Below, piece after piece: positions 8,003 to 24,292 of a stretch of DNA of 27,961 nucleotides. The first letter of the stretch is position 1. Each line of letters starts with the position of its first letter. The notes under the pieces were generated by a model, which was not told where the DNA came from, did not search any database, and worked only from the letters and a program-made list of their open reading frames with translations. Source of the DNA: a virus. The DNA is taken from IMG/VR virus record IMGVR_UViG_3300025120_000411, positions 1 to 27,961 of that record. The stretch is one strand, 5' to 3'. Made by a program: the position numbers and the translations under genes.

Positions 8003-9076
8003 TTATAACCTTTTGGTGATTACAGGCTCTCCACCAAATTTTTCTTCTTGTTTAATAAAGTCATAAAAACCTTGAACAGCAACTTCTTTGTGTTTTGCTT
8101 CAATGTCGAAATCAGCGTACTCAAGCATAGGCACATGATTAGCCATTAAATCTTCATCCCAATAAGTTTCAGAATGTGCATTAGGTTTCATCCAATAAGC
8201 TGAATTGTCGGGGTGGAAAGATTGTGATTTGTGGAACAACGGGCGTACGCCTCGCCATGACTTGACAGCTTCCACGAAGTAGTCACTTGTGTGCGTGATG
8301 TGATCAACGTCTCGAACTTTCCTATTGACCGTTTTTTCGCCAACTTTAACTCTCTCAGTCTCAACCATTCTATGGCAGGCATAGTGGTGTGTGTCGAGGG
8401 TGCAGCGGATAGGGATCCGTTGGGCAAGTTCAAGTGTATGGTGGATGTCATATCCATTGGGTTTATCTTCGTTCTCGACGGATAAGCAGCCTTGGGCATA
8501 GTCGGATAAGTAGGGGAAGTGTGTGGCAAAGCGTTTAATACCATCTTCGTGTTTTCCTCCATAGAGTCCTTGTAGGTGAATGTTCATTGAAAAATCTTGG
8601 GCAGGTAAACCCATCATCGATCCGTATAAAGCATGATACTCAAGATCTTCAATAGATTTTGTTACAACGTCTGGTTTATCAGACGCAAGTACTGTATACT
8701 GAGCAGGATGAGTAGATAAACGAATACCGTGTTTTTTAGCAGCATTACCTGCAAGTTTAAGAATTTCTGAAAGTTCTTCCCAAATTTCTTCATACCACGG
8801 TTGTGTAAAGTGTAGAGTGTAGCAAGGAAATAGCTCACTAGAAATTCTAAATGCTCGTAAATTTTGTGGTTGGTTAGGGAAGTATGTTGTAAGTATATCA
8901 AGTAGTTTTTTAGTATTTGCTATAGCTTTTTGTTGTACTTTTTCTTTACCACCTTCTTTGAGGGCGTAAGTTTTGGTAGTAGTACCAAAATTGTACCTTT
9001 TTGCTAAAGTTTTATCATGCCACTGACAACACTGAGAGAGTCGCCAATCGATTTGCGTTTTATTGAAATATTCCAT
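8003..9076 (-). CDS. uvdE: UV damage endonuclease UvdE
   Basis: 357 aa TIM-barrel endonuclease that nicks DNA 5' to UV photoproducts, an alternative to UvrABC or T4 DenV. Family motifs in order: FRISSELFP (76-84), RLSTHPAQYTVL (119-130) with metal-ligand His, NIHLQGLYGGKHEDG (about 165-179), LSVENEDKPNGYD (about 198-210) with metal-binding Glu, and LDTHHYACH (about 227-235). Length is slightly above bacterial UvdE and all metal-binding blocks are present. SD TGGAGAA precedes ATG. It forms its own transcription unit with promoter 9099-9127 and terminator 7941-7967. Likely protects phage DNA in sunlit water. Confidence 0.93.
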   Translation of the reverse strand: MEYFNKTQIDWRLSQCCQWHDKTLAKRYNFGTTTKTYALKEGGKEKVQQKAIANTKKLLDILTTYFPNQPQNLRAFRISSELFPCYTLHFTQPWYEEIWEELSEILKLAGNAAKKHGIRLSTHPAQYTVLASDKPDVVTKSIEDLEYHALYGSMMGLPAQDFSMNIHLQGLYGGKHEDGIKRFATHFPYLSDYAQGCLSVENEDKPNGYDIHHTLELAQRIPIRCTLDTHHYACHRMVETERVKVGEKTVNRKVRDVDHITHTSDYFVEAVKSWRGVRPLFHKSQSFHPDNSAYWMKPNAHSETYWDEDLMANHVPMLEYADFDIEAKHKEVAVQGFYDFIKQEEKFGGEPVITKRL

Positions 9077-14377: not shown

Positions 14378-14462
14378 TGGCTGTGGAGGATGGAGTCGAA
14401 CCATCACGCCTTTCGGCACACGAGAAACAATCGTGCGTGTCTACCAGTTTCACCACCCCACA
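14378..14462 (-). tRNA. Unusual class II tRNA, anticodon GUU
   Basis: 85 nt including encoded CCA. Acceptor TGTGGGG pairs with CTCCACA (one G-U); D-stem GTG/CAC with loop AAACTGGTAGA; anticodon stem CACGA/TCGTG, loop TTGTTTC, so the anticodon is GUU (Asn codons) and base 37 is U; 13-nt variable region with GCC-GAAA-GGC hairpin; T-arm GATGG-TTCGACT-CCATC; discriminator G73. The long variable arm and D-loop are those of tRNA-Leu, while U1-A72, G73 and GUU are the features of tRNA-Asn. Position 37 is normally a purine. All stems pair, so this is not an obvious pseudogene. It starts 5 nt after the AsnRS-like gene. Confidence 0.88.
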
Positions 14463-14467
14463 ATAAA

Positions 14468-15310
14468 TTATGCTGCGAGAGGCATCTGAGTATCTAGCGC
14501 CGCTATCATACGAGTCATACCAATACCACCCCCTACACGAGGGAAGAAGTCAAACTTTAAAAATTCCTCAAGTTCTGCCTCTACGCGGTCTTTACCAAAT
14601 AAGTCAAATAACAGGTTTGCATACGCTCCATCGGTAATTGTGTGGAAAGTATCACGCATTTGATCTACGTTCGTAGAACGTTCAGCTGAACCGATTGTTT
14701 CCATACCACCTAAAATAACATCTATCTTACGACTTGTGCCATCGGCATTACGAGCCATGTTCCAAAACGGGCTAGTCATTTCAGGAAAATCTGTGATCAT
14801 AGTGCTACCAAATATTTCTTTCATCATTAGCTCTTCACCAGCCTCCATTTCGGTATCTGCGCTTAATCCAAAGTGCTTCTGCCATTCAGCATAAGACCGT
14901 ACTACAACATCACCAAAACCTCCGAAGCCTAAATACTCACAAAGCTCATAGTTCATATCTTTGAGATCATTAATGTCGCCTGGCATTTCAAATTCAAACA
15001 TTGGAAAGATGATATCATGCCTACCTGGAATTGCGTTTGGTTCTTGTCTGTAAGAAGTTGAGACACAAAAAAAGCCCTTTGAATCAGGCTGGGAAAGTAA
15101 TTCATGTTCTAACCACATCTGACCTGTTTGTGGAAGAGGCCAAACTTGATCTGCGTAGTTGTAGGTTGCTACATTAAAAGGGTCTTCACATGCAGCGAGT
15201 ATGCTTAGTCTATTTTGGGTATGGACTTCGAGAAATCCTTTGTCTAAAAAAAATGACCTTAAAAGGCCAACTGTATCTGTAAATTTCTGAGGGGATATTA
15301 ATTGAGTCAT
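14468..15310 (-). CDS. Stand-alone AsnRS/AspRS-type class II catalytic domain
   Basis: 280 aa from ATG 15310 (SD AAAGG; a GTG at 15340 lies in the leader U-tract). Class IIb synthetase core: motif 1 region GFLEVHTQ (25-31, the usual TP is TQ), LPQTGQMWLEHELL (59-72, the amino-acid pocket SGQLYLE of AsnRS), motif 2 YRQEPN...GRHDIIFPMFEFE (Arg88, Glu90), TDFPEMTSPFW (173-183, compare TDYPKEIKPFY of AsnRS), and motif 3 GGGIGMTRMIAAL (Arg267). There is no N-terminal anticodon-binding OB domain. Such fragments include archaeal AsnRS-related asparagine synthetase and AsnA; either asparagine synthesis or charging of the adjacent tRNA is possible. All three ATP-binding motifs appear usable. Its operon partner is the GUU tRNA 5 nt downstream. 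Confidence 0.85.
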   Translation of the reverse strand: MTQLISPQKFTDTVGLLRSFFLDKGFLEVHTQNRLSILAACEDPFNVATYNYADQVWPLPQTGQMWLEHELLSQPDSKGFFCVSTSYRQEPNAIPGRHDIIFPMFEFEMPGDINDLKDMNYELCEYLGFGGFGDVVVRSYAEWQKHFGLSADTEMEAGEELMMKEIFGSTMITDFPEMTSPFWNMARNADGTSRKIDVILGGMETIGSAERSTNVDQMRDTFHTITDGAYANLLFDLFGKDRVEAELEEFLKFDFFPRVGGGIGMTRMIAALDTQMPLAA

Positions 15311-15330
15311 TAAAAAACCTTTCTTTATAT

Positions 15331-15360
15331 AAAAAGACACGCAGATTTAAAACCTGCGTT
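15331..15360 (-). promoter_or_regulatory. Leader hairpin plus U-tract (possible attenuator)
   Basis: Minus strand ACGCAG...CTGCGT (15359-15339) can extend to nine pairs around a 3-nt loop, followed by GTCTTTTT. It lies between the promoter 15372-15400 (expected start near 15365) and the SD of the AsnRS-like gene, so the full hairpin is in the leader RNA. It could be an attenuator or simply end read-through from the genes upstream. No leader peptide frame is visible. Confidence 0.65.
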
Positions 15361-15626: not shown

Positions 15627-16487
15627 TTAATAACTCTGTGCTAGTCGCCACATTAAGTATTCCTTGCTCTCAATAGGTTCATATTTTGCTTCTGTATCAC
15701 GAAGATTACTTACAATAGTTCCTGGAGTAGGATCTACAAAGTGTGGCATACTATATCGTTCTTGATGTATATGGGTATTTACAACTCTATGTTTAGTGCT
15801 TACAAAGTAATCGTTAGTCCAACGTTGTAATAAATCACCTATATTCACTACGACACCACCCTCTGCATAAGGTACAGGATGCCAGACACCCCCTAAGTCC
15901 TGTACTTCAAGACCTGGCACATCATTAATCTGCCATAACAAGGTGATGGTGCCGTAGTCGCTGTGTTCGCCAATGCGCATTTGCTTTTTTTCAAGAGGGC
16001 CAGTATACGCAGGATAATGAATGACTCGCGTTGTATTATAAGGATTTTGATGCGCATCTACTAGTGTAGTGCCAGTATTCAGTATAGTATCAAACTTTTC
16101 TAGTATGCGTAGTGTTAAATCGTCTGCAATACGAACTGAATTTAGTGCTGTAACTTTAAAAAAATCTATCTCAGTAGGCCATAGGGAGTCAGGCATACGA
16201 GTATTATTGTAATTGAAACTTTCTTTCATGTCTTTAGGAGCAGTTGGGTCTACATTTTCTGCACCCATAACACTGTATCCTAGATTATTTTCTGCTTGAT
16301 AAGAGTACTTCTTTTTAACATCCAAGTTGAGTTCAAAAAATTGCTTCATATAATCAAACCAGTGATATATAATTTCTTGATCTTGTTTGTTTAATGTATT
16401 AGTAAAGACAGCGAAGCCCACAGTTGTGTAGGCTTCGCGAATCTCTTCCAGTACTGTGCTTGATTGGAAATCAATAACTGGAATCAT
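15627..16487 (-). CDS. Isopenicillin-N-synthase-like 2OG-Fe(II) dioxygenase
   Basis: 286 aa, full length for the IPNS/gibberellin-oxidase-like family. N-terminal domain IPVIDFQ...GFAVFTN; Fe ligands His175 and Asp177 (IGEHSDYGTITLL) and His233 (STKHRVVN); the 2-oxoglutarate-binding Arg244-Tyr-Ser246 in QERYSMPHF. All catalytic residues are present, so an active 2OG- and O2-dependent hydroxylase is expected. SD AGGAA before ATG. It lies 3 nt after the gene for a BMP-type binding protein; such oxygenases are often encoded beside nucleobase or amine transporters in marine bacteria, so its substrate may be what that protein binds. This last point is inference. Confidence 0.9.
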   Translation of the reverse strand: MIPVIDFQSSTVLEEIREAYTTVGFAVFTNTLNKQDQEIIYHWFDYMKQFFELNLDVKKKYSYQAENNLGYSVMGAENVDPTAPKDMKESFNYNNTRMPDSLWPTEIDFFKVTALNSVRIADDLTLRILEKFDTILNTGTTLVDAHQNPYNTTRVIHYPAYTGPLEKKQMRIGEHSDYGTITLLWQINDVPGLEVQDLGGVWHPVPYAEGGVVVNIGDLLQRWTNDYFVSTKHRVVNTHIHQERYSMPHFVDPTPGTIVSNLRDTEAKYEPIESKEYLMWRLAQSY

Positions 16488-16490
16488 AGT

Positions 16491-17570
16491 TTAGTTTCCT
16501 GGTACTGTAGCGTCAATGCCTTCAACATAATACATCATTGTATTAAGATGTGCATCGTCAGCTACTTCGCCGTCTTTAAGTTGAAGTTTACCAGTGTTGT
16601 CTTTGATAGGGCCGGTAAATGCAAAGTATTTACCATCAGAGATTGCTTGTTTAATCTCAGCAGCTTTCATCTTTACATTATCAGGCATATTAGTAAAGGG
16701 TGCCATTTGTACAGCTCCTTCATCCATATCACCAAAGTAGTTTTCTTTTTGCCAAGCACCAGCGATAACTTGTCCAACCTTCTTTACGTAGTAAGGTCCC
16801 CAGTTATCAATAGTTGCTGTAAGCTGTGCTTTAGGAGCAAATTTATACTGATCACTTGCTTGTCCAAATCCTAACTTACCTTGACTCTGTGCAGCTTGTA
16901 GGGGTGCGGGACTGTCAGTATGCTGTGCAACCATATCACAACCTTCTGCCATCATAACGTTAGCAGCATCTGCTTCTTTACTAGGGTTATACCAAGTATT
17001 TGCCCACACAATGTCGATATCAACATTCGGGTTCATCTTCTTAGCACCCATGTAGTAGGTATTGATTTCCCTAATAACTTCTGGAATAGGGTAGGCAGCT
17101 ACATAGCAAATTTTATTAGTTTTAGTCATCATACCAGCAATAATGCCCTGCACGTGTCGTGCTTGATATAGCCGCAAACCATATGAGCTCATGTTATCTG
17201 CTTGCTTATACCCTGTTGCATGTTCAAAATATACATTAGGGAACTCTTTAGCAACTTTTAACATTGGCTCCATATATCCAAACGAAGTAGCAAAGACGAT
17301 ATCATTAGTTTCTGCTAGCATACGAATTACGCGTTCTGCGTCCGGGCCGTACTTTACGCTTTCGACGTAAGATGTTTTTACTTTATCACCAAAAGCTTCT
17401 TCTACTTGTTGACGACCAATATCATGACGATAAGTCCATCCATGATCTCCAATGGGCCCGACATATACAAAACCTACTTTTACGGGGTCGGCTGCAAAAG
17501 CAAGTGAGGACATAAGTCCAAGAAACATACTGATAACAACAGTATGAAATAGTTTTTCAAAATAACGCAT
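16491..17570 (-). CDS. BMP/PnrA-family ABC transporter substrate-binding protein
   Basis: 359 aa periplasmic protein. Signal peptide about 1-26 ending SSLAFA before ADPVKV, with no lipobox, so a soluble SPase I product. Family motifs: KVGFVYVGPIGDHGWTYRHD (30-49), VFATSFGYMEPMLKVAKEFP, VYFEHATGY, GIIAGMMTK, WYNPSKEADAANVMMAEGCD and TIDNWGPYY. PF02608 members bind purine nucleosides or related compounds and deliver them to an ABC transporter. No permease or ATPase is present here, so it must use the host's. SD AAAGGAAATAAA. A phage-encoded scavenging protein for nucleobases would feed DNA synthesis; ligand identity is inferred from the family only. Confidence 0.92.
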   Translation of the reverse strand: MRYFEKLFHTVVISMFLGLMSSLAFAADPVKVGFVYVGPIGDHGWTYRHDIGRQQVEEAFGDKVKTSYVESVKYGPDAERVIRMLAETNDIVFATSFGYMEPMLKVAKEFPNVYFEHATGYKQADNMSSYGLRLYQARHVQGIIAGMMTKTNKICYVAAYPIPEVIREINTYYMGAKKMNPNVDIDIVWANTWYNPSKEADAANVMMAEGCDMVAQHTDSPAPLQAAQSQGKLGFGQASDQYKFAPKAQLTATIDNWGPYYVKKVGQVIAGAWQKENYFGDMDEGAVQMAPFTNMPDNVKMKAAEIKQAISDGKYFAFTGPIKDNTGKLQLKDGEVADDAHLNTMMYYVEGIDATVPGN

Positions 17571-18924: not shown

Positions 18925-19152
18925 TTAATCAGTCTTTCTGATATCATAAATACGTTGCTCTTCGGGGCTAGTTGAATATATTTGAGGTATTGAGCAGTTT
19001 TCTTTAGGATTAACAACCCAGTTTAACTCTTGAATTAGTCTCGTATACCACATTTTGTCATGTTCGTCACTAGCTTTTTCTCTATCTTCTTTAAGTTGCT
19101 TTACTCTGACTGCTACATAGTCATGTGTTGTAGCGGCCAAGCCACGTCTCAT
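18925..19152 (-). CDS. Conserved small phage protein
   Basis: 75 aa, helical, MRRGLAATTHDYVAVRVKQL then REKASDEHDKMWYTRLIQEL NWV. The DKMWYxRLIQELNW block is one I recall from small marine-myovirus proteins. ATGA overlap with the oxygenase stop. No motif pointing to an enzymatic role. Confidence 0.65.
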   Translation of the reverse strand: MRRGLAATTHDYVAVRVKQLKEDREKASDEHDKMWYTRLIQELNWVVNPKENCSIPQIYSTSPEEQRIYDIRKTD

Positions 19153-20237
19153 GCTGCTACCTTGTTATTTTCAAGAATAGTTAAAGGATTCATCGGACTC
19201 ACGCCCAGCATATTACCCCATGCTTCGTAATAATGTCTCATGCCAACTTCATCATGAATTGTAGAGTTTTCATGACGACCGTGTAGAATGTTTCTCGATT
19301 CGGTACCTTCTCTCATTGTAGTGCCTTGACCAGCAACACCGATAAGATCTTCATGCAGATTACGACCAAACGGTCCCCAAATAGAATTGTGGTGTTTGAT
19401 TCTTGTTTGTCTTTCTTCTGGTGTATCACACTTAAGTCCGTATCCACGAAACTCAATCAACACTTTGTTTGGTCCAAGTGGTGTCACTGAATCTGACCTA
19501 TAGGCACTACCACGCAGGTTAAAGTTAAAGCCAGGGAACAGGTCAACCATGTACCATTGGTTTGGTGGGAGATTAGGAAAACTAAGATCGCCTCTATCCT
19601 CAAACCCATCGTATTCTTCGTAGTTGACTGTAAAAGAGCTGACATTGACATGCCCATTTTCAAAAGGAATATTTTTTCTAGCAAAATATTCATCATTAAA
19701 TCCACTCACTCTATTGAAGTAATGCATAAAGTCGTGATAAAACTCGGAATTGGTATCGTGCCATAACTTATAGTTGGTTTCAATCACTGCTTTGTGATAG
19801 TGAAACACTTCCATCTCTTCTGTGTCAATAGCATCAGCAATACAATCAAACGCACCTGCTGTCCACTCGTCTACAGACTGTGTAGGATTAGAGTCGAGTG
19901 TAACCCACACCATGCCACCATGATAAACTTCGCAATGAAGTTCTTTACCAACGGTTTCGTTGCTAGTCATATTACCTGCTACGCTATGAATGTTTTCTCC
20001 GAGATATGCTTTCACGACGTTGCCTGTGTTCCAAGCAACCACACGTTGTCCTGCAATCTGAGTTGTGCGGAAATCTCCTGCATTGTACATCTCAGAAATA
20101 TGGCACATAGGTACCCACACTTTTGAAAAGATATCTTCTTGTTCACGTAAGTAAATTTCGTGGTTATTGTAGCATTCGCTACTAATGTATTCAACTTTAG
20201 GTGTTTTAGTCCAGTTACTATGATTACGTGGTGGCAT
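19149..20237 (-). CDS. Ring-hydroxylating oxygenase alpha-like, Rieske domain missing
   Basis: 362 aa from ATG 20237 (SD GGGAGACTCAC; an upstream ATG at 20300 lies inside aprB without SD). The N-terminus IYLREQEDIFSKVWVPMCHI and AGDFRTTQIAGQRVV aligns with RHO alpha subunits, but where the Rieske CxH...CxxH should follow there are only about 22 residues (78-100) with no such motif before VYHGGMVWVTLD (104-115). The catalytic domain keeps NYKLWHDTN...FYHDFMH (His168, His172; spacing x3 instead of the usual x4) and HEDLIG (Asp297), a plausible mononuclear-iron triad. Electrons must come from a separate protein; the AprB-type Fe-S protein encoded just before it (14-nt overlap) is the obvious candidate. 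Substrate unknown. Confidence 0.75.
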   Translation of the reverse strand: MPPRNHSNWTKTPKVEYISSECYNNHEIYLREQEDIFSKVWVPMCHISEMYNAGDFRTTQIAGQRVVAWNTGNVVKAYLGENIHSVAGNMTSNETVGKELHCEVYHGGMVWVTLDSNPTQSVDEWTAGAFDCIADAIDTEEMEVFHYHKAVIETNYKLWHDTNSEFYHDFMHYFNRVSGFNDEYFARKNIPFENGHVNVSSFTVNYEEYDGFEDRGDLSFPNLPPNQWYMVDLFPGFNFNLRGSAYRSDSVTPLGPNKVLIEFRGYGLKCDTPEERQTRIKHHNSIWGPFGRNLHEDLIGVAGQGTTMREGTESRNILHGRHENSTIHDEVGMRHYYEAWGNMLGVSPMNPLTILENNKVAA

Positions 20238-20712
20238 GTGAGTCTCCCGTATATTTGTATTTAACAAACTTGTTTCTAGTGATGGTGCGAAGTCCTCCAT
20301 CTGCTAATAAATATTCTGGTTCGTGTGCTAATTGTTGTGTATCTTTTAGTCCTTGTTCTGGCTTGTCGTATTCGCTTGCACACTTAATACTGCCCCAAGG
20401 TGTTGTGCGGATAGGACTTTCAAAATGCTTTTCTCTACCATCCCTAAATTTAAGTCGCCAACTAATAACGCCTTTTTCTGGTTCTCGTAATACTCTAACC
20501 TTGTGGTTCATGGGAGCAAAATCAGAGTACCCACGATCATCAATCGCATTTTGTGGGCATGCTTTTATACAACTGTAGCACTCCCAACAAAAGTTTGGTT
20601 CTATGTTTACTGCTCGTCTAGTAACAGGGTCAATATGCATGATATCACTTGGACAAATATCAACGCAATAACCGCAGCCGTCACAGGCGGTCATGTATAC
20701 AAATGTAGGCAT
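20224..20712 (-). CDS. aprB: Adenylylsulfate reductase beta subunit AprB
   Basis: 162 aa, family-typical length. Two [4Fe-4S] motifs: C10-x2-C13-x2-C16-x3-C20 and C42-x2-C45-x2-C48-x3-C52, with the AprB-specific CWECYSCIKACPQNAID and Trp43, the residue that in Archaeoglobus AprB (Trp48) lies between the FAD of AprA and the cluster. The tail RGYSDFAPMNHKVRVLRE, KFRDGREKHF and IRTTPWGSI is diagnostic of AprB rather than a generic ferredoxin. AprA is not in this window. In the host, AprAB interconverts APS and sulfite plus AMP. Here AprB could boost host AprA or serve the oxygenase encoded next to it. SD AAAGGATAGTTA. Confidence 0.93.
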   Translation of the reverse strand: MPTFVYMTACDGCGYCVDICPSDIMHIDPVTRRAVNIEPNFCWECYSCIKACPQNAIDDRGYSDFAPMNHKVRVLREPEKGVISWRLKFRDGREKHFESPIRTTPWGSIKCASEYDKPEQGLKDTQQLAHEPEYLLADGGLRTITRNKFVKYKYTGDSHATT

Positions 20713-20715
20713 TAA

Positions 20716-21057
20716 CTATCCTTTTCTATATTTCTGACTTTTTGGAGGCGACTTTTTAGATCCTGAAGGTCCGGCCCAATAGACTTTATTAGCCCAGTAA
20801 GCTGCTGACATTTTTCCTTTGGCGATGTTGCGACCGTGCCTTGCTTTAAATGATCTACGTGCCTCTGGAGAATAGTTGTGGCCCATAGAAGAGTCTCCAA
20901 AGTGTATAAGTCGCACTTTGTCACCGTCCTTGGCGAGTACCATGCCCTTCTTGCCTTCTCGGTTTGATCTTCTTGGTTTGTTGAATCCATCAAATTTTGT
21001 TCCTCTGTAGTCAATTTTACCACTAGGTAATCTCTTCACTCCTGGGTATTTTGCCAT
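20716..21057 (-). CDS. Conserved basic phage protein
   Basis: 113 aa, MAKYPGVKRLPSGKIDYRGTKF..., with MVLAKDGDKVRLIHFGDSSM, GHNYSPEARRSFKARHGRNI and SAAYWANKVYWAGP, a pattern I recall from marine phages (and some large viruses). Very basic (about 27% Lys+Arg). It precedes aprB by 3 nt, so they share a transcript. Likely nucleic-acid or virion associated; function unknown. An overlapping frame 20712-21023 is rejected. Confidence 0.75.
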   Translation of the reverse strand: MAKYPGVKRLPSGKIDYRGTKFDGFNKPRRSNREGKKGMVLAKDGDKVRLIHFGDSSMGHNYSPEARRSFKARHGRNIAKGKMSAAYWANKVYWAGPSGSKKSPPKSQKYRKG

Positions 21058-22313: not shown

Positions 22314-22995
22314 ATTGTAGTCTCCTATTTTTTAGTAGAGGTAAAAACGGTACAGCGTCTTGTTCAAATATAATAGGATCTGCACCATCAATGGTCATAA
22401 CAATCGCTATATTTCTTATTCCTGTTCCGTACATCTCATTATGTGCTACAGCATAAGCACAGCCTTGAATATAGTAATCTGTAATTTGTTTAGTAGATTT
22501 CTTCTTCTTTGATGTTTTAAAGTCAATAATAGTAGGCTTGTCTTTCCAAATACCTACCATATCACAACGCCCAGCATAGGAATATTTATTTGACCATAAT
22601 ACTTGTTCTTGTCCCCAGACCTCTTCAATACCTCGCTCTGTAGCTCTAATTAAATCACGACTCATCTGTCTTACGTCTAGTCTCTCCTGAGATAATTCTT
22701 GCCATACGTCTTCCCCGTTGAAATGCTTTTCTGCATATTCGTGAACTAAAGTGCCTCGATCTGTAGCTTCTTTGGAAACCCGTCGAGCTTCTTCTTCCCC
22801 TACTCTCTCTATCCATTTTTGTAACCAAGTGTTATCTGAAGTTTTACCCAATATAGTAGTAATTGACGGATATGATCCGTCAGGTGTATGATAAGTACGT
22901 CCCGTGGGTAGTGTATCAGTATCTACCTCAGTCGTGTAGTCGTACTTCCCTTTTAAAATCGTCCACGGTGTTGACAATAGGTTTTCCTTTCGCAT
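22291..22995 (-). CDS. PD-(D/E)XK nuclease (RecB/Cas4-type)
   Basis: 234 aa at most. Catalytic blocks of the RecB-like exonuclease domain: RGTLVHEYAEK (His85), YAGRCDMVG (Asp145), TIIDFKTSKKK (Asp158, Lys160) and YYIQGCAYA (Gln177, Tyr181). No cysteine cluster like that of Cas4 is present, so a plain phage exonuclease is likelier, for recombination or DNA processing. The start is uncertain: ATG 22995 has no SD, whereas TTG at 22977 has AAAGGA at good distance; either leaves the domain whole. Overlaps the carbamoyltransferase by 68 nt (50 nt with the TTG). Confidence 0.88.
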   Translation of the reverse strand: MRKENLLSTPWTILKGKYDYTTEVDTDTLPTGRTYHTPDGSYPSITTILGKTSDNTWLQKWIERVGEEEARRVSKEATDRGTLVHEYAEKHFNGEDVWQELSQERLDVRQMSRDLIRATERGIEEVWGQEQVLWSNKYSYAGRCDMVGIWKDKPTIIDFKTSKKKKSTKQITDYYIQGCAYAVAHNEMYGTGIRNIAIVMTIDGADPIIFEQDAVPFLPLLKNRRLQYDKLANQ

Positions 22996-24292
22996 TCAAG
23001 CTAGTATTAATTAAAATGGGATACCCATATTGTCTAGTTTTTTCTAATACTTTCCAAAGATACGCATTAGAAGAGCCAGTAACAGTTTGAAGACGGGCAG
23101 TATTATCATGAGTTTTAAAGTTACCTTCAATAATATCAGCAACAAATAACATTTCTTTAGAATGTTGATAAACTTTAAAGTAGTTATCAGCTTCTTCAAT
23201 CTGACAGACAGGCGCATAAGGTCTCCAAGAATCAGTATCTCTCATTTTTATACGATTTAATTTTTTAATGTTATCATCAGTAGGAGCACATAGCAAAGAC
23301 CTATTTCCAAGAGCTCGTGGTCCGAATTCTGCGCGTCCTTGTATGACAGGAACAATCTCACCTTTAATAATTAAATCAGCACATTCATCAGCTGTAATAT
23401 CATTATTTGCAGACACTCCTAAGTACGCGTTTTCCCATAGTGGACGAGTAATTAAAGCAGCAGCTCCTAGCGCACACCCAGCATCACCTGCGGCGGGTTG
23501 AATAGCAACGTGCTTAAAGCCTGAATGTTTTAACAGATAGGTATTAGCAACACAATTTAGGGCAACACCTCCAGCATATGCTAGATTAGTTAATCCTGTT
23601 TCTTTTTGGAGCCATGTTGTAAGAGAGAGTAGTATGTTTTGAGTAACTTGTTGTACAGAAGCCGCAATATCCCAGTCTAGAGTACCAGTGCCTACTCCGC
23701 GTTCTAAGTTATGTAAAAAAGTATAGTCACCGTCTGCATTATAGTCTACAACTTTTTGATTAATCCAAGATGCCCATTTAGGTTTTCCATGAGCAGCAGC
23801 ACTCATCACTTTACACTCATCGCTTAGAGGTACAAATCCCAACAAACGAGTAGCACTAGAATAAAATAAACCAATAGAGTTTGGATAACGAAATCTTTTA
23901 ATCCATTCGATTTGACCATTTCTATATACTCCTAAAGAGGTTGAATAACGATTGCCTACCGTATCTACGACCATTATAGCACAATCAGTCCAGTCAGTGG
24001 TTAAAATAGAACTCATAGCATGAGCTTCGTGATGATCTACTAATACAGGGCGTGCAGATGTAAGTTTTTTAATATCTGATTTAAATTGATTATAGGTAGT
24101 TTCTTCATAAAAAGCAGCAAATTCCCAATCATCATACTGATTTCTTAACCAACGAATAGTATTTTCTGGAAAAGATTTATCAAACTTTTTTCGGGTAAAA
24201 CGCTCTTCGTGAGAAGCACCTTCAATAAATCCGTTATTTAAAGATGCGGCTGCACTATCGTGATGATAAGAGCTCACTCCTAAAATCTTCAT
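22928..24292 (-). CDS. NodU/CmcH-family carbamoyltransferase
   Basis: 454 aa O-carbamoyltransferase. N-terminal kinase-like domain: MKILGVSSYHHDSAAA with HHD, EERFTRKKFDKSFP, DHHEAHAMSS, VVDTVGNR; then YAGGVALNCVANTYLL and IQPAAGDAGCALGAA; C-terminal domain: GRAEFGPRALGNRSLL, SWRPYAPVC, LINTSLNAKGKPIVNT. It transfers carbamoyl from carbamoyl phosphate to a hydroxyl. Family members act on antibiotics and Nod factors; phage relatives can carbamoylate hydroxymethyl-cytosine in DNA. The total length is shorter than TobZ (about 570 aa) but both domains are intact. Partner 2OG oxygenase overlaps it by 38 nt. SD AAAAGG. Target (DNA base or surface glycan) is undecided. Confidence 0.92.
   Translation of the reverse strand: MKILGVSSYHHDSAAASLNNGFIEGASHEERFTRKKFDKSFPENTIRWLRNQYDDWEFAAFYEETTYNQFKSDIKKLTSARPVLVDHHEAHAMSSILTTDWTDCAIMVVDTVGNRYSTSLGVYRNGQIEWIKRFRYPNSIGLFYSSATRLLGFVPLSDECKVMSAAAHGKPKWASWINQKVVDYNADGDYTFLHNLERGVGTGTLDWDIAASVQQVTQNILLSLTTWLQKETGLTNLAYAGGVALNCVANTYLLKHSGFKHVAIQPAAGDAGCALGAAALITRPLWENAYLGVSANNDITADECADLIIKGEIVPVIQGRAEFGPRALGNRSLLCAPTDDNIKKLNRIKMRDTDSWRPYAPVCQIEEADNYFKVYQHSKEMLFVADIIEGNFKTHDNTARLQTVTGSSNAYLWKVLEKTRQYGYPILINTSLNAKGKPIVNTVDDFKREVRLHD

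Follow-up and report, generated by a model that had tools for sequence, protein, structure and literature searches.

The iron half of a split SAR116 methanesulfonate monooxygenase is probably encoded by marine viruses, in some of them next to aprB

We describe a viral oxygenase, encoded immediately downstream of aprB, which is probably (we put the probability at roughly two in three) the iron half of a methanesulfonate monooxygenase that SAR116 bacteria have in split form; its Rieske half would be provided by the host, and the viral AprB would serve the subsequent sulfite step. Both genes are found in an IMG/VR virus record of 27,961 bases, the whole of which was analysed and is referred to here as the window. 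The first-pass annotation of this sequence had proposed AprB as a substitute for the missing Rieske cluster. The part of that proposal by which the oxygenase, having lost its own cluster, needs an outside donor was borne out, but AprB is not the donor to which the evidence points: most likely the electron-supplying half comes from the infected SAR116 bacterium and not from the neighbouring gene.

The gene pair in the window

Both genes lie on the minus strand. The first, aprB (20224–20712), encodes a 162-aa AprB-like protein (adenylylsulfate reductase beta subunit), and the second (19149–20237, with its ATG at 20237 and its end at 19149) a 362-aa MsmA-type oxygenase subunit without a Rieske cluster. 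As originally annotated, the aprB stop codon lies inside the oxygenase gene, the two ORFs overlapping by 14 nt (20224–20237, minus strand). An in-frame upstream ATG at 20300 was rejected as the oxygenase start, given that relatives align instead from the methionine of MPPRNH. Upstream of aprB is a phage gene of 113 aa (20716–21057, minus strand). No ORF of the window is long enough or similar enough to be aprA, in agreement with the earlier remark that this gene is not nearby.

The assignment of AprB was supported. The protein scored 173 bits against the NCBIfam model TIGR02060 (cut-off 135.65), matched the C-terminal domain PF12139 of Pfam at 1.3e-24 and chain B of the solved AprAB enzymes 1jnr and 3gyx, and has the two 4Fe-4S motifs and the electron-path tryptophan already ascribed to it, W43 aligning to W48 of A. 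fulgidus 1jnr. It is a conserved and host-like protein: viral AprB is 77–83% identical to its counterparts in seven SAR116 genomes in which this oxygenase is also encoded, 103 of 162 positions are identical across all the viral and these seven sequences, and apart from the C-terminal tail there is little difference between the two sets. Such a nearly host-like sequence would be expected if binding to host AprA persists. The dN/dS values (0.03–0.18) reflect strong purifying selection.

Further cargo is present in the window. At 14378–15340 (minus strand) a tRNA-Asn (GTT) is found beside an ORF of unknown function (phrog_29758) resembling the catalytic domain of class II Asx-tRNA synthetases or AsnA. 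Several of the aprB loci have a relative of this ORF close to the oxygenase. Other cargo genes (16491–17570, 15627–16487, 22928–24292 and 8003–9076) include a PnrA/Bmp-type substrate-binding protein, a 2OG-Fe(II) oxygenase, a Nol-like carbamoyltransferase and an endonuclease family match (phrog_8420).

Loss of the Rieske site and retention of the iron site

The oxygenase matched the ring-hydroxylating catalytic domain PF00848 at 3.8e-6, above the cut-off, and left only a trace below the cut-off for the Rieske domain PF00355. Its AF2 model (pLDDT 83.9, pTM 0.86) superimposed on the alpha subunit of salicylate 5-hydroxylase (7c8z) with a Z of 32.4 over 308 aa and an rmsd of 2.4; the predicted structure is a Rieske-oxygenase alpha fold. 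A genome scan recovered two kinds of cellular relatives, namely full MsmA proteins with a Rieske domain (48–57% identical) and proteins as short as the viral one (72–84% identical), mostly from SAR116 genomes, whose chromosomal homologues are 80–84% identical to the window protein. This homology to MsmA, together with the host gene neighbourhood described below, suggests methanesulfonate as the substrate.

To compare the metal sites we aligned 52 canonical MsmA sequences, 10 of the SAR116 proteins called here Rieske halves (see below) and 109 iron-half sequences (the window protein, 18 from cellular contigs and 90 viral). All the canonical sequences keep the four Rieske ligands (with one undetermined residue), the bridging glutamate and the H/H/D iron ligands. 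The two other sets have reciprocal losses: the 10 Rieske halves have 4/4 Rieske ligands and essentially none of the iron ligands, and the 109 iron halves have 0/4 Rieske ligands together with all the iron ligands and E165. The CXH…CXXH pattern that Rieske-oxygenase alpha subunits hold in the same chain is thus missing from the window protein and its 108 homologues. In the viral protein the CXH-X26-CXXH stretch typical of MsmA is deleted from a remnant Rieske domain (19917–20000, minus strand), and it is present in the host Rieske-half paralogue. "Rieske-less", as the protein had been called, is therefore apt in the functional sense, because the remnant beta domain stays but none of its four Cys/His ligands does.

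The 2-His-1-carboxylate iron site characteristic of the catalytic domain is invariant in all iron-half proteins; in the window it consists of H168 and H172 (at the two ends of 19722–19736) and D297 (19347–19349), all on the minus strand. E165 (19743–19745, minus strand), the bridge by which electrons enter from the Rieske cluster of an adjacent subunit, is likewise invariant in the 52 canonical MsmA and in the 18 cell-contig and 90 viral homologues, with or without aprB, and is lost in all 10 Rieske halves.

A Rieske half in SAR116 genomes

The short SAR116 homologues are encoded in a locus that starts with a sulfonate ABC transporter (including an SsuA-family sulfonate binding protein), followed by an MsmA-like/reductase fusion of about 800 aa, MsmB and MsmC (Rieske ferredoxin), and continues with a 279-aa protein, the short MsmA, LysR, TauE and C1 genes. 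The fusion protein joins an MsmA-like N-terminal half to a C-terminal pyridine-nucleotide reductase half; in one locus (L102) it measures 796 aa, with PF00355 at 43–132 and PF07992 at 387–686. In these hosts, then, the Rieske domain is located on a separate, reductase-fused chain, which retains CXH-X26-CXXH and has lost the bridging glutamate and the iron ligands. In genome G091, which we take to be probably Ca. Puniceispirillum marinum IMCC1322, the likely host of phage HMO-2011, E is replaced by K and the two H by Q and K, and the Asp region is deleted. Since modelling of the Rieske half gave low confidence (pLDDT 63.8), the state of this site is read from the ligand alignment.

The two halves occur together. 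Of 136 genomes from the SAR116 order, 12 carry the iron half; the Rieske half was found in these same 12 and in none of the other 124 (Fisher p = 2e-17), although one of the 12 has two of each, one has fragments only and one is interrupted by TGA. The remaining 124 match by the reductase domain only, or through a canonical MsmA in one case (G135), and no complete MsmA was seen in the 12. As neither half is a full enzyme, we infer that they make up one split monooxygenase, in which the two halves probably form a complex. They lie on one contig, about 11–13 kb apart, in G003 and G005, and both are present in the further genomes G011, G012 and G014. The contig of G006 ends before the Rieske half; G015 and G016 are without it, and their oxygenase contigs look viral. 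Two loci filed under Hellea and Rickettsiales MAGs (L115 and L116) were considered as cellular loci without a Rieske half and discarded, since several of their neighbouring genes match viral contigs; they are probably viral contigs binned into MAGs.

Some features of these loci deserve mention. The conserved 279-aa protein encoded between msmC and the iron-half gene (L102:6953–7792, L110:6921–7745 and other SAR116 loci) has no Pfam or NCBIfam match. In G003 (L103, L154) each half is present in duplicate, and in the IMCC1322-like genome (L213:6912–11502) a molybdopterin oxidoreductase gene (PF00384) and the two genes that follow it lie within the msm cluster, between msmC and the iron half.

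The sulfite step and a model of the infected cell

Genes for sulfite oxidation accompany the iron half in part of the SAR116 order: aprB was found in 7 of the 12 genomes with this half and in 3 of the 124 without it (p = 6e-7), the other five of the 12 having no aprB. The locus is (sat)-aprM-aprB-aprA in seven SAR116 genomes and aprM-aprB-aprA in G014, and in all eight cellular genomes examined aprA adjoins aprB. In three of them (G010, G004 and G005) sat-aprM-aprB-aprA lies 10–13 kb from the iron-half gene, and in two other Proteobacteria (L144, L156) msm and apr genes are neighbours. That SAR116 genera carry msmA, aprABM and sat has been reported (PMC8547437). The viral pair is most simply read as supplementing consecutive steps of a single pathway, with one subunit for each.

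In Rieske oxygenases the electron leaves the cluster of one alpha subunit and reaches the iron of the adjacent one via an acidic residue (Asp205 in naphthalene dioxygenase, Glu205 in CntA). Because electrons cross the alpha–alpha interface, two oppositely defective alpha subunits can form one working pair. We propose that the viral oxygenase makes up the catalytic half of such a pair, the one with the mononuclear iron, the Rieske cluster being located on the separate host MsmA paralogue with the destroyed iron site and the fused NADH-reductase domain. The viral subunit would join the host Rieske half, MsmB and MsmC, and electrons from the host Rieske cluster would cross between the subunits and reach the viral iron by way of E165. 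During infection the host catalytic subunit would be raised in amount or replaced by the viral one. Methanesulfonate would be converted to sulfite, which host AprA with AprB would then oxidise to APS, AprB being a subunit for this next step and not the donor of the oxygenase. A SAR116 host for the window virus, and a benefit to the virus, are presumed in this scheme.

The pair among viruses and competing explanations

A scan of IMG/VR gave 20 stretches that encode AprB and, for relatives of the oxygenase, at least 599. Partner subunits are absent from the viral records searched, and viruses carry the iron half only. For the Rieske half the scan, which used exact peptide patterns and so reaches close relatives only, returned distant reductases only, and in the same way no aprA was found in these records, which are fragments; with TIGR02061, aprA was absent from 15 aprB-bearing viral records. 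Single subunits of both complexes without their partners, and host-like sequences in both AprB and the oxygenase, are also what would be seen if the virus simply replenished short-lived or limiting subunits, with no link between the two genes beyond a shared pathway, much as cyanophages replenish D1. Taken alone we consider this dosage effect unlikely, and it amounts to a sub-version of the split enzyme that we favour.

The oxygenase lies downstream of aprB in all 19 viral aprB loci that could be evaluated, directly so in 18 and with one gene between them in L035, and most of these loci have an overlap of 11 or 14 nt. They span at least six different gene neighbourhoods. The survey thus upheld the earlier expectation that aprB and the oxygenase are conserved as a unit without aprA, and the combination named beforehand as contrary (aprA in the same phage with adjacency missing in relatives) was not observed. 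This tight and overlapping arrangement, kept in different neighbourhoods, together with the lack of aprA in the viral records tested and the nature of AprB as an electron carrier, speaks for the idea that AprB binds the oxygenase and supplies its iron site with electrons, doing the work of the absent Rieske cluster. We regard this as very improbable, on several grounds. Among the best 80 of the at least 599 oxygenase loci, 71 had an upstream sequence of 550 nt or more; of these 71, 7 have aprB and 64 do not. Eight aprB-less loci show the same site without it, the counterpart of the window's 113-aa gene abutting the oxygenase. Many cellular copies (the 5 of 12 in SAR116) also do without aprB, which is absent from both HMO-2011 and its likely host genome G091. 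A dedicated host Rieske half with a dead iron site is available and strictly coupled to the iron half (12/12 versus 0/124), E165 is retained regardless of aprB, and AprB is nearly unchanged from the host sequence. Finally, aprB requires 10 changes on the oxygenase tree, at least 8 of them on well-supported branches, and no residue among the top columns tracked it significantly over 8 independent pairs, a comparison of low power.

Adjacency in all evaluable aprB loci, the varied neighbourhoods and the many oxygenase loci without aprB establish the two genes as a real recurrent unit in which aprB is optional for the oxygenase. A further reading is hitch-hiking, in which aprB would have been taken from the host sulfur island without any function linked to the oxygenase. 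The two genes are indeed 10–13 kb apart in some hosts, but adjacency across at least six neighbourhoods and 8–10 gains or losses on the oxygenase tree, with AprB under the constraint noted above, leave little room for this explanation. That the viral subunits are decoys which poison or redirect host complexes is highly unlikely: partial subunits could conceivably compete with those of the host, but a decoy would have no need of the catalytic ligands and the two cluster motifs, all of which are conserved and intact here. We give the least credence to a loop in which sulfite-derived electrons would return from host AprA via AprB to the split monooxygenase, the sulfite of one methanesulfonate paying for the next and the virus supplying both the iron subunit and the "wire".

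Other observations concern the position occupied by aprB. In viruses without aprB, no other ferredoxin was found there in 100 loci searched with the C-x2-C-x2-C-x3-C motif. By eye, nine loci (L053–L056, L059, L060, L063, L077 and L079) have a gene like IscA/HesB-type Fe-S carriers just upstream of the oxygenase, and two (L069, L073) have a small Cys gene resembling DUF1289, so that this position is repeatedly taken by Fe-S genes. One aprB-oxygenase pair is found on a viral record of 316,012 bases (L086/L032), possibly a jumbo phage or a host–virus join.

Relation to known systems

The closest known system is MsmABCD of Filomicrobium, Hyphomicrobium and other methylotrophs, with which the oxygenase shares the fold, the 48–57% identity and the iron ligands, and the host loci the MsmB/MsmC neighbours, the sulfonate ABC transporter and the C1 genes. 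However, in known MsmA both sites, Rieske and iron, belong to a single chain, with a spacer of 26 aa that has been called diagnostic (PMC4433239), whereas here there are two reciprocally damaged chains, the Rieske one fused to a reductase. A precedent for a split Rieske oxygenase, likened here by description, is NdmC-NdmD (PMC4408171), part of the caffeine N7-demethylase NdmC-NdmD-NdmE of Pseudomonas putida CBB5, in which the oxygenase also has no Rieske cluster. That system needs a GST-like scaffold protein, acts on a different substrate and is not viral, and PMC4408171 describes no dead second oxygenase domain in it, unlike in the SAR116 Rieske half.

Among viruses, the "MsmA" encoded by ORF61 of the Puniceispirillum phage HMO-2011 is 70% identical to the window oxygenase and also has no Rieske ligands, but has no aprB beside it. 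This phage MsmA has been reported before (PMC4928673), as has the absence of the Rieske motif from it and from marine sequences (PMC4433239), and viral msmA is known as an auxiliary gene (PMC10134843); the literature searched names no partner for ORF61. The sulfite oxidation set of SAR116 (AprBA/AprM/Sat, as in HGC2-C and HGC2-D, and shared with other sulfur oxidisers) contains the AprB to which the viral protein is so similar, whereas the virus has aprB alone. Cultured phages gave no match to AprB, and the titles and abstract openings of publications on viral aprB mention no AprB-oxygenase pair. The reciprocal MsmA split, its strict pairing in SAR116 and the viral aprB-oxygenase unit are apparently new, in that we did not find them in a literature search outside which most subscription journals fall.

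Implications

The split enzyme offers a candidate answer to an anomaly noted in 2015, that many marine and viral "MsmA" are without a Rieske motif: such proteins would be half of a divided enzyme, the iron site having been lost from its other half. It would also call for caution with single-gene "auxiliary metabolic gene" assignments, which can hide subunits that depend on a host partner. If the proposed split is correct, marine viruses of a widespread group encode no more than the catalytic half of the enzyme with which their hosts break down methanesulfonate, one of the important organosulfur compounds of the sea; some of these viruses also contribute a subunit to sulfite oxidation, the step that follows.
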